Below, piece after piece: positions 46,705 through 52,643 of a DNA stretch of 64,000 bases (position 1 is the first letter of the stretch; each line of letters opens with the position of its first letter). Source of the DNA: Paraglaciecola sp. T6c (GTDB taxonomy: Bacteria > Pseudomonadota > Gammaproteobacteria > Enterobacterales > Alteromonadaceae). Where the stretch lies: assembly GCF_000014225.1 (NCBI RefSeq), contig NC_008228.1, positions 3,782,001 to 3,846,000 on the forward strand, read 5' to 3'. A model generated the notes under the pieces. The model had not been told where the DNA came from. It made no database searches and worked only from the letters and a program-made list of their open reading frames with translations. A program made the translations under genes and the position numbers.

Positions 46705-47463
46705 TTACCGACTATTTGAAAGCAGATCTAACCTATCTAACGATGGTAATTCCCAGCCCCATTGCACCATCAATGTAGACATCCTTTGATCGAAATCATT
46801 CACTATCGCCAATTTTTCGTTACTTACTGGATGTGTCATGCACATTTGTTGGCAGGTCAATGCCAAACCATTAAATGAAAACTGATCACGCATAAATTTA
46901 TTGTGTTTTCCATCACCATGAGTGGTATCACCCACGATGGGATGATTAATATGGCACATGTGCCTACGCAATTGATGTTTGCGACCCGTCTTTGGGTGCA
47001 GCCGCACGAGCGTGTATCGAGCCGAGGGATAACGACTGACAGCAAAAGGCAACTCGAATTGCTGTAGCGGCACGTATTCTGTTTGTGCTTCTTGGGCGTC
47101 TTTATCTTGTTTAGCACGCTTATCTGCTATTTTATCGAGCTTTTCTTTAAGGGCATAATCAATCAAACCCGCTTCTTTTACATGGCCGCGCACGATGGCG
47201 AAGTACGTTTTTGCAATTGTATTACCAGCAAATTGCTCCCCCAGCAGGCGCGCAATATCTGCAGATAAAGCGAACACTAGTACTCCGGAGGTTGGGCGAT
47301 CTAAACGATGAACCGGAAACACATGCTGACCGATTTGGTCTCTGAGCATCTGCATCGCAAACTGGGTTTCGTGACGGTCAATCATACTTCTGTGTACTAA
47401 TAAACCAGCGGGTTTGTGAATAGCGACTAAGCATTCGTCTTGATACAAAATAGTTAATGTCAT
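46705..47463 (-). CDS. truC: tRNA pseudouridine(65) synthase
   Basis: TruC makes pseudouridine at position 65 of tRNA-Ile and tRNA-Asp. From ATG 47463 it is 252 residues. The catalytic Asp lies in HRLDRPTSGVLVFAL, and the RluA-family motif ETQ..YVPL is followed by HPKTGRKHQLRRHM. The ATG shares one base with the yqcC stop (TAATG). The upstream extension to 47478 is not needed. Confidence 0.93.
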   Translation of the reverse strand: MTLTILYQDECLVAIHKPAGLLVHRSMIDRHETQFAMQMLRDQIGQHVFPVHRLDRPTSGVLVFALSADIARLLGEQFAGNTIAKTYFAIVRGHVKEAGLIDYALKEKLDKIADKRAKQDKDAQEAQTEYVPLQQFELPFAVSRYPSARYTLVRLHPKTGRKHQLRRHMCHINHPIVGDTTHGDGKHNKFMRDQFSFNGLALTCQQMCMTHPVSNEKLAIVNDFDQRMSTLMVQWGWELPSLDRLDLLSNSR

Positions 47464-47819
47464 TATTCTGCTCCACAAAACGCGAGGTCAATTTGCGCTA
47501 ACACGTCAAGTACAGGTTCCCGCGTTGGCTGTCCTGTCGTGTATTCTTTAGCCCACTCTTGTGCCATCGGCATAAGTGCCATTCGTGTGGGCAGTGGCTT
47601 TTCTTCTTGTAACAATTCATTCATCTTGGGAATAAAGATAAATTGCAGCCACTGAGCAAATCCCATACGATCACAAGCAAAAGGCAATTCACTTTGCATT
47701 GCCCACTGTGATGGCGGGGAATAAGTCCACTGTTCAGCTGTTTTTAGTGCCTCGGCCAATTGCGATAACAGCTTCTCTACTTGGACTTCTGAGGCGCTAC
47801 ATGGCATGCTTCCGCTCAT
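47463..47819 (-). CDS. yqcC: YqcC family protein
   Basis: The 118-residue protein is helical and acidic, with the YqcC pattern PFACDRMGFAQWLQFIFIPKM and LPTRMALMPMAQEW. The function is unknown. The yqcC-truC-yqcA operon is conserved in enterics, where csrB lies beside it, and here a csrB-like RNA lies 1.4 kb away. Confidence 0.9.
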   Translation of the reverse strand: MSGSMPCSASEVQVEKLLSQLAEALKTAEQWTYSPPSQWAMQSELPFACDRMGFAQWLQFIFIPKMNELLQEEKPLPTRMALMPMAQEWAKEYTTGQPTREPVLDVLAQIDLAFCGAE

Positions 47820-47878: not shown

Positions 47879-48904
47879 ATGAATCAAATCAGCTCCATCA
47901 GTGAATTTCTTCTTCACGCTCAAACTGAATACCATGTATTTGATATGGGTCGGTCTATTCGCAGCATTGATAGCCAGACTTTTTTAAACATAGAAAACGC
48001 CAGTGAAGCTGCCCCCTATCCTCGCCAGCAACACGCATGGTTTGGTATTATTTTCTTTAGTCGGCAATTGAGTCGAGAGCATTACATTTGGTTTGTAAAA
48101 CTTCCTTTAGATGAAAAAGGTTTAGTTATCAGTGCTACGCGCAATCATTTTTTACAAATAATCACTGATGCTTTAGGCGCCCAGTTAGAACACAACAAAG
48201 CGGCCCAAGGGCGGTTACCAGAAAATCCGTATACGTTCGTTCCAAACCAACAGCAACTGGCCGATTTTAATAGCATGAGCCGCAATGTATTACAGCTACC
48301 GCCCAGTGAGTATTATTCACCTGCTGTGCGTTACTTAGCTCAGCCTCAAGCCCATGACTGGCAGAATGTCGCATTGCAAGGTATTGCCGATATTGCCGCG
48401 AGCGTGCGCCGTAAAGAAGGCGCGCTGTTGATTACTGAAAATATTACTAAGGTAGCCCCTCAAGTGCAGCAAGCGTTAATGTCATCACTTGAGAATTACA
48501 CTTTAGATAAAGACACTAGCCAGTGTTTAATTGACCATGCGCACCAGCGTTTTGATGAGCCTCTGCAGATCCAGTGGACCTTACGCGCGTTAAGCCAAAG
48601 TGTTGCTAATACTGTCGTTAACACATTTATCCAGCGCGTACTGGATTCGCAGCACAGTAAAACGCCAGAGATCATGTTGTTGATTGCAGCAAGACATTGG
48701 CGCTGTTTACAAAACGAAAAAATCTTGCGCCAGTATATTAGTCAACTCGCCGACATTGATATCGAACTGTGCGCCGATTTATACAGTGACTTAGTGCAGA
48801 TCCCAGGTATTCGCCCTACTATGCTCGGTGTCATCAGATGGCAAGATAAAACTCCAGCAGTAACGCAAATGATCGGCCATTTGTTCAGTGGACAACAAAA
48901 ATGA
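47879..48904 (+). CDS. DUF3549 family protein
   Basis: The 341-residue soluble protein has a FDMGRSIRSID segment near the N-terminus and a helical, repeat-like C-terminal half. It matches what I know of DUF3549, an uncharacterised family next to yqcC in Alteromonadales and Vibrionales. It is divergent from yqcC and overlaps the DUF3301 gene by 4 bp. Confidence 0.8.
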   Translation: MNQISSISEFLLHAQTEYHVFDMGRSIRSIDSQTFLNIENASEAAPYPRQQHAWFGIIFFSRQLSREHYIWFVKLPLDEKGLVISATRNHFLQIITDALGAQLEHNKAAQGRLPENPYTFVPNQQQLADFNSMSRNVLQLPPSEYYSPAVRYLAQPQAHDWQNVALQGIADIAASVRRKEGALLITENITKVAPQVQQALMSSLENYTLDKDTSQCLIDHAHQRFDEPLQIQWTLRALSQSVANTVVNTFIQRVLDSQHSKTPEIMLLIAARHWRCLQNEKILRQYISQLADIDIELCADLYSDLVQIPGIRPTMLGVIRWQDKTPAVTQMIGHLFSGQQK

Positions 48905-49206
48905 ATTTGTTTGATTTGACCTTATTTCTGGTGATCTTATTGGTGGTATTTCAGTTTTGGCGCATGCGAGCCATTACTGAAAAGGCTAACCAATATCTCG
49001 CTCAGTATTGTGATAAGCATGGCTTGCAACTAATCAGCAATGCACGGCATAAAACCCGCTTGGGTAGTTACAGAGGAAAGCTCGATTGGCAAAGTTGCTT
49101 CGTATTTGAATTTTCAGGTAATGGTGAAAACAGTTATCAAGGCACGCTTACTATGGCCGGAAAGCACATTCTAAACGTTGATACTCCTGCTTATCGAGTA
49201 GATTAA
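48901..49206 (+). CDS. DUF3301 family membrane protein
   Basis: The 101-residue protein starts with one transmembrane helix (residues 3-20), followed by a small beta-rich domain with LDWQSCFVFEFSGNG. It matches DUF3301, uncharacterised. It overlaps the DUF3549 gene by 4 bp (ATGA), so they form an operon. Confidence 0.8.
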   Translation: MNLFDLTLFLVILLVVFQFWRMRAITEKANQYLAQYCDKHGLQLISNARHKTRLGSYRGKLDWQSCFVFEFSGNGENSYQGTLTMAGKHILNVDTPAYRVD

Positions 49207-49262
49207 TCGTTTAGAAAAGTAAATGTAAGCTGAGTTAGACACGGCCTCTTTATTGAGCCCAG

Positions 49263-49862
49263 AAACTGCAAAGGCGCGGCCTGAATCATTTCAAGCCACG
49301 CCTTTACATAAAAATTGAAGGTCCCTCTGTGCGCTCCTTCGCAACAACTACGTCACACCATCCTTGTCTTGTCCTTCTGTCATTCATCCTGAATGCGGCA
49401 CTTATCCCAAGTGTGTCCTTTTCCTTTTATCACCTTCCTAGGTGAGTGCTGTCTTCCCAACAGCGATCCTGTTTGCGTCCAATGCGCTTACATCCCTATA
49501 AGCAACTCATCCTGAGTTAGTCCATATCCTTTTAGCTCTGTCGAGCAACTTCGTCCTGAAGCATTCATTTCATCCCTGTTCCATTCATCCCGAATGAACG
49601 CTCGTCCTGAGCGGGTCCTTGTCCATAGCGCTGTCGCGCGACTTCGTCCTGAAGTATCCTTGACATCCTTTCCATTCATCCAGAATGGGCACTCGTCCTG
49701 AGTGTGTCCTTTTCCTTATTACCATTTCCAAATGGGGTGCTCATACTGAGCCTTTCCTGATAATCCTTATAACAGTTTATCCTTTAAACTGTATTGCTCG
49801 TCCTGAGCTTGTCCTAGGTCATCCTTGTGTCTTCCTGACTCGTCGTGTTTCCCTGTGACGAA
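49263..49862 (-). ncRNA. csrB: CsrB-type CsrA-sequestering small RNA
   Basis: This minus-strand region of about 600 nt has no credible gene but carries 40 GGA triplets between 49852 and 49322, against about eight expected by chance. Many lie in the loops of tiny hairpins whose arms differ from one to the next, for example CTCAGGACGAG, TTCAGGACGAA, CATTCAGGATGAATG and CACTTGGGATAAGTG. CAGGA(U/C)G loops are the known CsrA-binding elements of CsrB and CsrC. The region sits between yqcC and syd, as E. coli csrB does. A minus-strand TATATA -10 box (49874-49869) sets the start near 49862, and a 16-bp terminal hairpin gives the end. At about 600 nt it is clearly longer than E. coli CsrB (369 nt, 22 GGA). 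Confidence 0.9.
49270..49305 (-). terminator. Terminal hairpin of the CsrB-type RNA
   Basis: As minus-strand RNA the arms AAAGGCGUGGCUUGAA and UUCAGGCCGCGCCUUU pair at all 16 positions, with two G-U pairs. On the plus strand the same two places would be C-A mismatches. This shows the selected RNA is the minus strand. The U-tract is short (CCUUUGCAGUUUC). Confidence 0.8.
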
Positions 49863-49868
49863 ACAAAC

Positions 49869-49874
49869 TATATA
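49869..49874 (-). promoter_or_regulatory. Candidate -10 box of the CsrB-type RNA
   Basis: TATATA on the minus strand lies just upstream of the first GGA hairpins. No good -35 box is found at 16-18 bp, which suits a promoter that depends on an activator such as GacA/UvrY. Confidence 0.5.
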
Positions 49875-50028
49875 ACAAACAAAAACATTTTCGACATAGA
49901 TCCGTGACACTTGTGTGACACCTCTTAGCCTAAAGTCTAAATTTTGGATTAAATTACATAAATTTCAATAAGTTAAAAATATAACACAGAGAAATACTGG
50001 CGTTTAAAATGACTTTATCCTACACCCT

Positions 50029-50046
50029 TGTACGAAATCTCTTACA
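50029..50046. promoter_or_regulatory. GacA/UvrY upstream activating sequence
   Basis: TGTACG-AAATCT-CTTACA matches the GacA/UvrY consensus TGTAAG-N6-CTTACA at 11 of 12 positions. It is part of a longer inverted repeat (CACCCTTGTA / TACAAGGGGTG). Its centre is about 175 bp upstream of the predicted csrB start, near the distance known for rsmZ and csrB. It is the likely binding site of the BarA-UvrY/GacS-GacA response regulator. Confidence 0.75.
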
Positions 50047-50164: not shown

Positions 50165-50809
50165 TTACTGGCGCTCACAAAACATTAAATGGCCTGTGAT
50201 ATGTCCTGTTTCTAATGCTTCGAGCATTTTATATTGCCCATCTTCAAAAAAAGATAAACATTTAGGTAAGGTGACGTATACACCAATCCCTTCACTGGCA
50301 GCATCTTCTTTCATCACACTATCAATGGCACTCATCAAAATATGCCCTAAGCCGTAGTGTTGGTAGTCAGGGTGCACACCTATAAACGACAACATATGGT
50401 AGCGCTGAGCCGGAATATGCTCTCGCACCTTCTGCTCTTTATCTACCATCTGCTTGGTGCCAAAGTAACCAGCAGTCAATAGCATTTTAAGACGCCAGTG
50501 CCAAAATCGGCTTGGCCCAAATTCAGCATCCGGCCCAATCAAACAGGCCACGGCGAGTAAACGCGTACCGTCAAATAGCCCTATCATAGGTTGCCTAGCT
50601 TGCCAAAAAGCATTGAGCTCTTCTCGGATGGCTGAACGCAACCGAGACTCATATCCTTCTTTGTTGTGTTGGAATATGTCCATGAACAAAGGATCATCAT
50701 GATATGCCTGATATAAAATTGACGCGGCAATCTTTAAATCTTCCGCGGCTAAATATATCGCTTTGATGTTATCCATATCTGGGGCGACAACGGTTTGAGA
50801 TAATGGCAT
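50165..50809 (-). CDS. GNAT family acetyltransferase
   Basis: The 214-residue protein has a GNAT core with FIGVHPDYQHYGLGHILMSAI (the acetyl-CoA loop Q/RxxGxG as YQHYGLG) and a following GVYVTLPKCLSFFEDGQYKM that matches the C-terminal GNAT strand. The substrate is unknown. It stands alone, upstream of csrB on the same strand, with 303 bp between its stop and the predicted csrB start. Confidence 0.82.
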   Translation of the reverse strand: MPLSQTVVAPDMDNIKAIYLAAEDLKIAASILYQAYHDDPLFMDIFQHNKEGYESRLRSAIREELNAFWQARQPMIGLFDGTRLLAVACLIGPDAEFGPSRFWHWRLKMLLTAGYFGTKQMVDKEQKVREHIPAQRYHMLSFIGVHPDYQHYGLGHILMSAIDSVMKEDAASEGIGVYVTLPKCLSFFEDGQYKMLEALETGHITGHLMFCERQ

Positions 50810-52082: not shown

Positions 52083-52643
52083 TTAGTCAGTCGTCGTGGG
52101 CTCTATTTCATCTAAAAAAGTCGCTAAGTCGGGGGATATTTGCTCTTTAGGCTGCAAACCAACTTGCTCTAGCATCACCGCCCCCGTTTGGTTGTCCACA
52201 CTTAATACAAAATCATCTTCATCTGTGAGTGCAATAAAGATAGTCTCGGGTTGGCGTAAGCGGCGTTTCATGAGTATGTGCCCCACGATATTTTGCTGAA
52301 GTCGTTCAAAATCTTCTTCATTCCACGCCTGTAATATCTGCAACTTACCACTAGGGTGCTGCGCCACTATGTTGTCGCTCCAGTAGCGAGAATAAAATTG
52401 CGCTACATCGGGATGCAGTGTTAATTCTAACGCCTCTGATAGGTCTTTAAATTCAGATGTTTGCTCACGCAATACCGGTTTCCAAGGAATTGATGTGCCT
52501 GATTCAGGGGTCACGTCTGTAGCGTAACAAGGGGATGGCCAATCCTCGTCATACTCAATGGCCCCTGCTTCAGCATGCTCCTTAACAAAGGCTGCGAAAC
52601 GTCCCATAAAATCATCTAATGATTGATTTACTGTTGAAGTCAT
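52083..52643 (-). CDS. syd: SecY-interacting protein Syd
   Basis: The 186-residue acidic protein has the Syd pattern: EYDEDWPSPC near residue 30, LHPDVAQFYSRYWSDNI and FIALTDEDDFVLSVDNQTGAV. Syd binds SecY and checks translocon integrity. Its place between the csrB region and queF is the same as in E. coli. Confidence 0.93.
   Translation of the reverse strand: MTSTVNQSLDDFMGRFAAFVKEHAEAGAIEYDEDWPSPCYATDVTPESGTSIPWKPVLREQTSEFKDLSEALELTLHPDVAQFYSRYWSDNIVAQHPSGKLQILQAWNEEDFERLQQNIVGHILMKRRLRQPETIFIALTDEDDFVLSVDNQTGAVMLEQVGLQPKEQISPDLATFLDEIEPTTTD

Follow-up and report, generated by a model that had tools for sequence, protein, structure and literature searches.

The window analyzed here, a stretch of 64,000 nucleotides (nt) from the single-contig 5.19-Mb genome of Paraglaciecola sp. 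T6c, carries a GGA-rich sequence flanked on one side by genes for flavodoxin, TruC, YqcC, DUF3549, and DUF3301 and on the other side by genes for a GNAT protein, DUF2789, DUF3192, and Syd. The DUF3549 protein is 94% identical to that of Paraglaciecola mesophila KMM 241, the nearest named relative among the matches. In Escherichia coli K-12, the gene order is yqcA-truC-yqcC-csrB-syd-queF, and the preliminary description had placed the sequence between yqcC and syd as in that species. That placement is correct, although yqcC and syd are here separated by at least five genes matching Pfam families (DUF3549, DUF3301, GNAT, DUF2789, and DUF3192), none of which E. coli has at this place. Gene order (truC-yqcC ... 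syd) and strand, which is that of syd as in E. coli, identify the locus as that of csrB, with extra genes in between. The features at this locus are as follows.

47463..47819, minus strand: yqcC (DUF446), from ORF and Pfam match
48901..49206, plus strand: DUF3301 gene, convergent neighbor, from ORF and Pfam match
49262..49859, minus strand: predicted csrB transcript of ~598 nt with 40 GGA, both ends predicted
49267..49308, minus strand: terminator-like hairpin of 19 pairs with a weak U tract, from folding; the RNA 3' end was set here
49324..49852, minus strand: GGA array, given by the first bases of the last and first GGA triplet, from triplet count
49376..49427, minus strand: CsrA-site module 4 (58.2 bits with covariance model R1)
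49480..49532, minus strand: CsrA-site module 3 (R1, 39.2 bits)
49533..49715, minus strand: 91-nt tandem duplication, 2.0 copies, 81% match, from TRF and alignment
49577..49627, minus strand: CsrA-site module 2 (R1, 47.1 bits)
49668..49718, minus strand: CsrA-site module 1, composed of linker GGA, linker GGA, and two GGA hairpins (R1, 56.2 bits)
49867..49894, minus strand: sigma-70-like promoter TCGAAA-16-TATAGT, a consensus match only (9/12)
50029..50046, minus strand: UvrY/GacA box TGTAAGAGATTTCGTACA, centered at ~ -178, from pattern search
50165..50809, minus strand: GNAT acetyltransferase gene, upstream neighbor, from ORF and Pfam match
52083..52643, minus strand: syd, from ORF and Pfam match

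The 40 GGA triplets reported in the preliminary description were recovered by an exact count of the minus strand in 49263-49862, with the first triplet at 49852, the last at 49324, and start-to-start spacings of consecutive triplets of 5 to 28 nt; CAGGA occurs 10 times. Dinucleotide-preserving shuffles of these 600 nt contained 21.2 GGA on average (SD, 3.0; maximum, 31; n = 2,000) and mononucleotide shuffles contained 17.3 (maximum, 29; n = 2,000), and the next-richest 600-nt stretch in the window has 13 GGA on the minus strand, with at most 11 on the plus strand. GGA chains were otherwise delimited by allowing gaps of ≤45 or ≤60 nt; the 60-nt gap gives 41 GGA for the T6c RNA, i.e., one more, and the rule overruns the terminator in L045 and L046. 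The minimum free energy of the predicted RNA is -175.4 kcal/mol, compared to a mean of -146.6 kcal/mol for 100 shuffles (z = -4.3). Many of the triplets had been assigned to hairpins. Their number is indeed above control, but they make up less than half of the array: 16 of the 40 lie in loops closed by a stem of at least 4 pairs (spacer-shuffled control: mean, 6.0; maximum, 13; n = 200) and 14 in loops with a stem of at least 5 pairs (control: mean, 2.1; maximum, 9), whereas 24 are outside hairpin loops of at least 4 pairs.

The predicted 5' end, GTCACAGGGA (GTCACAGGGAAAC), is kept in relatives and resembles the annotated start of E. coli csrB, GTCGACAGGGA (GTCGACAGGGAG). Upstream of it, TGTAAGAGATTTCGTACA is similar both to TGTGAGAGATCTCTTACA, which precedes E. 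coli csrB, and to the UvrY box published as TGTAAGN6CTTACA (PMC3171408); the hand-counted centers in T6c and E. coli are at ~ -178 and ~ -182, respectively. Apart from TGTAAGAGATTTCGTACA, the genome contains no site that fits the typed 18-nt pattern without a mismatch. Sites with one or two mismatches elsewhere were discarded, the reversed control pattern having given 15; a UvrY-like site at 3023303 was likewise rejected, being located inside an ATG-started open frame with 570 codons to the locus end and without an adjoining GGA chain. A promoter scan of both strands gave 4 sites versus 1.7 expected. At the other end of the predicted RNA, the genus alignment shows two-sided changes in two pairs of the terminator-like hairpin (columns 679-706 and 681-704); the terminator scan, which needs 5 T in 8, does not list this hairpin at 49267-49308. 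The genome has a single-copy CsrA gene (71 amino acids) and a UvrY homolog with 62% identity to E. coli UvrY (E = 1.9e-84). GGA in hairpin loops, an upstream UvrY/GacA-type box, and genes for CsrA and UvrY, all expected of a CsrB/RsmB-type small RNA, are present together.

The GGA triplets are better conserved than other triplets. In six relatives, 40/40, 39/40, 33/33, 30/33, 36/40, and 36/40 of them are kept, the last two values including aligned modules that are perhaps in part paralogous owing to an insertion; other triplets are kept at 85, 61, 69, 60, 51, and 49%, respectively. Within the genus, a chain of 24 to 50 GGA adjoins the DUF3549 gene in 16 of 21 loci, that of T6c included. The other five are without a long chain at this place; in four of these genomes, the 5' end or a chain is located at another place, and in genome G017 neither a csrB 5' end nor a GGA chain was seen. 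In L004, L043, L076, and G015, csrB is ~1.4 to 57 kb away from the DUF3549 gene (distances determined by hand) and not adjacent to it.

The recurring unit of the array, which combines two linker GGA with two GGA hairpins, was picked by GGA spacing without use of structure. It is repeated every 91 to 105 nt in the T6c RNA, and 70 instances, 68 of them different, were found in 46 RNAs of the family. Among the 44 of 68 that were aligned, 12 of 12 pairs changed on both sides, and there were 75 double-change cells, whereas shuffles gave 18.3 and slid versions no more than 26; the cells are not independent, as the modules share relationships among themselves. The proposal that the arms vary while the loops are kept therefore holds in the two-hairpin module. 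RNAalifold applied to seven whole RNAs found double changes in 10 of 136 pairs, with a covariation term of -3.66 of -133 kcal/mol, and gives weaker support to the structure than the module covariation. The four T6c modules belong to the training set of R1, so that their matches arise by construction; across the T6c genome, with 150 of 489 first-look candidates scored, R1 found only these four places, all in the csrB RNA, and none elsewhere at E ≤ 1. Across the family, it matched in 45 of 147 genomes.

With the Rfam CsrB model (RF00018), the search suggested in the preliminary description returned a match of 49.9 bits at 49387-49723 (E = 2.9e-12) and another of 24.5 bits at 49739-49815, yet the gathering score of 71 bits is not reached, so that by Rfam's own cutoff the RNA is not a member of the family. 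The E value and the locus nevertheless argue for homology to CsrB. A default Rfam scan of the window reported four tRNAs and no CsrB, as default scanning misses a score below the gathering cutoff; this makes it plausible that the RNA, as supposed in the preliminary description, is probably unannotated. Genus-wide, the model finds a match at E ≤ 0.001 in 12 of 22 genomes, and none of the 22, that of T6c included, passes the cutoff, which shows that Rfam's model misses larger CsrB forms. The remaining 10 of 22 are without a match at E 0.001. Among these Rfam-silent genomes, G002, G007, G013, G018, and G020 carry a chain of 24 to 50 GGA at the csrB locus. In the T6c genome, the Rfam CsrB model and R1 (150 of 489 candidates scored) match only the csrB locus; a divergent short second Csr RNA is possible. 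A match to the RsmZ model at 874960 (E = 3.6e-4, below the cutoff) was rejected, as it spans the end of a 491-amino-acid ORF and a terminator-like hairpin and has no GGA chain; this model also matched in 8 of 14 control genomes.

The RNA had been called unusually large, which is true in relation to E. coli CsrB (369 nt, 22 GGA) but not in relation to its relatives. The 5'-end pattern (≤3 mismatches) was found in 35 of 196 family genomes, the reversed control being absent among the matches listed. Loci with the 5' end at ≤4 substitutions, with duplicates of one RNA dropped, yielded 46 distinct RNAs with 18 to 53 GGA and 219 to 787 nt from the 5' end to the last GGA; three of the 35 genomes (G015, G051, and G035) gave no locus and are outside this set, and the L009/L025 RNA is cut by the contig end. 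Length and GGA number are closely correlated over the 46 RNAs (r = 0.96; ~13 nt per GGA). The largest RNA seen here in the family of T6c, L171 from genome G101, has 57 GGA in 681 nt; the chain rule gives 60 GGA in 719 nt, and the count by hand is 57 because three of these lie upstream of the 5' end. Order-wide, the Rfam CsrB model matched at least 157 of 295 genomes, a lower bound because the stricter filters miss the T6c locus itself, and 20 chosen stretches from 12 matching genomes had chains of 15 to 46 GGA. Twelve loci in genus g85 of family f25 have chains of 35 to 42 GGA, and 35 to 62 GGA are present in three other families. Given these ranges, 40 GGA are large in comparison with the 22 of E. 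coli, yet not rare. A fixed total of GGA per genome, with a single long RNA taking the place of several short ones, was considered and set aside: genomes of the order with several copies carry, e.g., 3 × 20, 26 + 30 + 26, or 46 + 21 + 18, and with totals varying in this way no constant total is seen.

That the T6c RNA exceeds E. coli CsrB in size is probably due, at least in part, to tandem duplication of whole modules. The 91-nt duplication at 49533..49715 was found by TRF but was missing from the output of a second run of the program, made on the extracted RNA. In the alignment with relatives, seven sequences in all, the large gaps correspond to whole modules carrying 7, 8, or 15 GGA: 91 to 95 nt with 7 or 8 GGA are present in T6c, L003, and L008 (Paraglaciecola chathamensis) and absent from L005, L012, L010, and L022, and the latter two carry a further 206 nt with 15 GGA. 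L008 and L005 share 95.7% identity over 442 aligned positions and are one module apart, and the DUF3549 tree joins their genomes as sisters (100/100 support). GGA numbers differ between sister species (33 versus 40). Since the module is common to the T6c pair and P. chathamensis, the simplest course would be an ancestral gain followed by loss in the line of L005. TRF detected further arrays in L009 (92 nt × 3.5, 99%), Paraglaciecola arctica L019 (92 nt × 3.7, 93%), and L022 (206 nt × 2.3, 90%).

A different unit recurs in csrB-like RNAs of genus g53 of family f2, outside the family of T6c and the most extreme example seen, where 9 of 11 genomes have a 50- to 52-nt unit of linker GGA and two GGA hairpins. 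One or two arrays per genome, read in nine genomes, comprise 2.8 to 12.6 copies with 73 to 98% match (the array count of L177 is approximate, as the locus contains 9 N), are alike at both ends, and have a terminator-like hairpin; neighboring units differ by paired changes, e.g., TTACAGGATGTAA versus TTGCAGGATGCGA. The 11 RNAs uncut by contig ends have 22 to 62 GGA, counted with the 45-nt gap (the 60-nt gap adds about one GGA past the terminator), and two others are cut. In this genus, L173, L174, and L176-L181 reach up to 62 GGA in 801 nt, and four of the nine genomes read carry two adjacent arrays.

TRF reported no repeat in many large RNAs, e.g., L171, L058, and the four f25 loci tested, so that recent tandem duplication cannot account for every large csrB; old, decayed duplications or other routes are possible sources of some. 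Self-alignment, with lenient scoring and six shuffles per RNA, clearly exceeded the controls in many long Paraglaciecola RNAs and exceeded them little or not at all in most RNAs of ~300 nt; the 530-nt RNA of A. hispanica (L047), L059, and L030 did not exceed them. The account of module growth given above is based on the alignment of relatives and on TRF.

The tandem duplications are real, and it could be argued that the sequence is a degenerate minisatellite that owes its many GGA to the chance composition of its founding unit and lacks any regulatory role. However, retention of GGA is far above that of other triplets, the hairpin arms covary, and the 5' end and the UvrY-type box are conserved in relatives, which renders this origin extremely improbable. 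We attach just as little credence to a small protein, encoded either by the 63-amino-acid minus-strand ORF at 49488-49679 or by the plus-strand frame opposite the 3' part of the RNA. The ORF exists, but it matches no Pfam family, and minus-strand stop-free stretches differ in frame and position among the seven aligned sequences, in which no coding signal was found on either strand. In T6c, L003, and L005, the plus-strand frame has no stop over ~61 codons, and in L008 and L012 it is open over most of that length; its start codon leaves 38 amino acids, and stops interrupt it in four of six relatives (L008, L012, L010, and L022). Its substitutions at codon positions 1/2/3 relative to T6c, 0/1/2 in L003, 8/3/4 in L008, 6/4/3 in L005, 4/7/8 in L012, 18/18/15 in L010, and 18/18/14 in L022, reveal no clear third-position excess in these six comparisons. 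Moreover, module indels such as those of 91, 94, 95, and 206 nt have lengths not divisible by three. A conserved ORF across relatives, named in the preliminary description as evidence against the RNA, was thus looked for on both strands and none was found; with no coding signal and no Pfam hit, the RNA is probably untranslated.

More serious, albeit still improbable, is the possibility that the locus produces several short CsrA-binding RNAs by internal starts or processing, as in the case of Aln1a-c, instead of one 600-nt RNA. For a related genus, three start sites have been described within 404 bp of intergenic DNA (PMC5864184), and the T6c modules recur every 91 to 105 nt. In contrast, the locus has a single conserved 5' end, a single UvrY box, and a single 3' hairpin, and the scan lists no minus-strand promoter- or terminator-like site within 49309-49860, a result tempered by the fact that the expected terminator is also unlisted. 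Aln1 may correspond to this locus. We infer that a single transcript is produced.

Taken together, synteny, the 5' end, the UvrY box, the covarying GGA hairpins, the Rfam E value of 2.9e-12, and lack of a coding signal bear out the CsrB-type nature of the RNA put forward in the preliminary description. We are strongly convinced that this is the csrB gene of Paraglaciecola, encoding one CsrA sponge of ~600 nt whose number of sites changes by whole modules. In the proposed mechanism, phosphorylated UvrY would bind the box near -178 and drive one minus-strand RNA of ~600 nt, whose GGA sites, partly in repeated modules, would bind CsrA dimers and keep CsrA off mRNAs; with UvrY off, the RNA would decay and CsrA would be freed. 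E. coli CsrB with its 22 GGA has been reported to bind ~18 CsrA subunits (PMC7652899). Provided that this ratio holds, the T6c RNA would accommodate ~33 subunits, i.e., ~16 dimers. A CsrA dimer can reportedly bridge two sites 10 to 63 nt apart on one RNA (PMC7652899).

An RNA of the CsrB type at this locus is in itself of a known kind, and the interest lies in its growth by tandem modules, whose number would be gained and lost between species. It is tempting to speculate that CsrB behaves like a minisatellite in which gain and loss of whole modules set CsrA-sponge capacity, a proposition that we consider evenly balanced between right and wrong. If true, the repeat number of csrB would be a dial by which evolution can adjust the global Csr switch, CsrB-type RNAs being described as setting the level of free CsrA and thereby governing motility, biofilm formation, and carbon use (PMC7652899). 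Natural RNAs with constant ends but differing numbers of whole modules represent a ready series for relating site number to sponge capacity. In the open-access papers searched, we found no account of module copy-number change in csrB; the key prediction paper (Kulkarni 2006) is outside this scope, and earlier notice is possible.

Compared with known Csr RNAs, the T6c RNA shares with E. coli CsrB the truC-yqcC-csrB-syd locus, the strand, the 5' end, the UvrY-type box, and GGA hairpins; it differs in size (~598 nt and 40 GGA versus 369 nt and 22 GGA) and in the five intervening genes, which the E. coli locus lacks. Shewanella oneidensis possesses two csrB genes instead of one long RNA, CsrB1 and CsrB2 (420 and 421 bp), described as rich in AGGA/ARGGA, preceded by a UvrY box, and UvrY dependent (PMC3171408). 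In the marine relative Pseudoalteromonas fuliginea, Pf1 to Pf3 are likewise CsrB-family sponges, with 25, 21, and 9 GGA, but encoded at three loci, and Pf2 and Pf3 are reported to have bound CsrA in gel shifts (PMC11882849). Aln1a-c of Alteromonas macleodii Te101 are of the same GGA-rich type; as described, these A(N)GGA-rich, very highly expressed small RNAs, proposed to sequester CsrA, arise as three RNAs from three start sites in 404 bp (PMC5864184), in contrast to the predicted single RNA of T6c. The CsrB-like g53 arrays resemble the T6c RNA in their growth by tandem units of linker GGA and GGA hairpins, albeit with a different unit of 50 to 52 nt. In Vibrio tasmaniensis, whole-gene duplication reportedly gave rise to csrB1 to csrB4 (cited in PMC11882849), so that the amount of csrB is raised through copies of the entire gene, whereas in Paraglaciecola modules are multiplied within one RNA.
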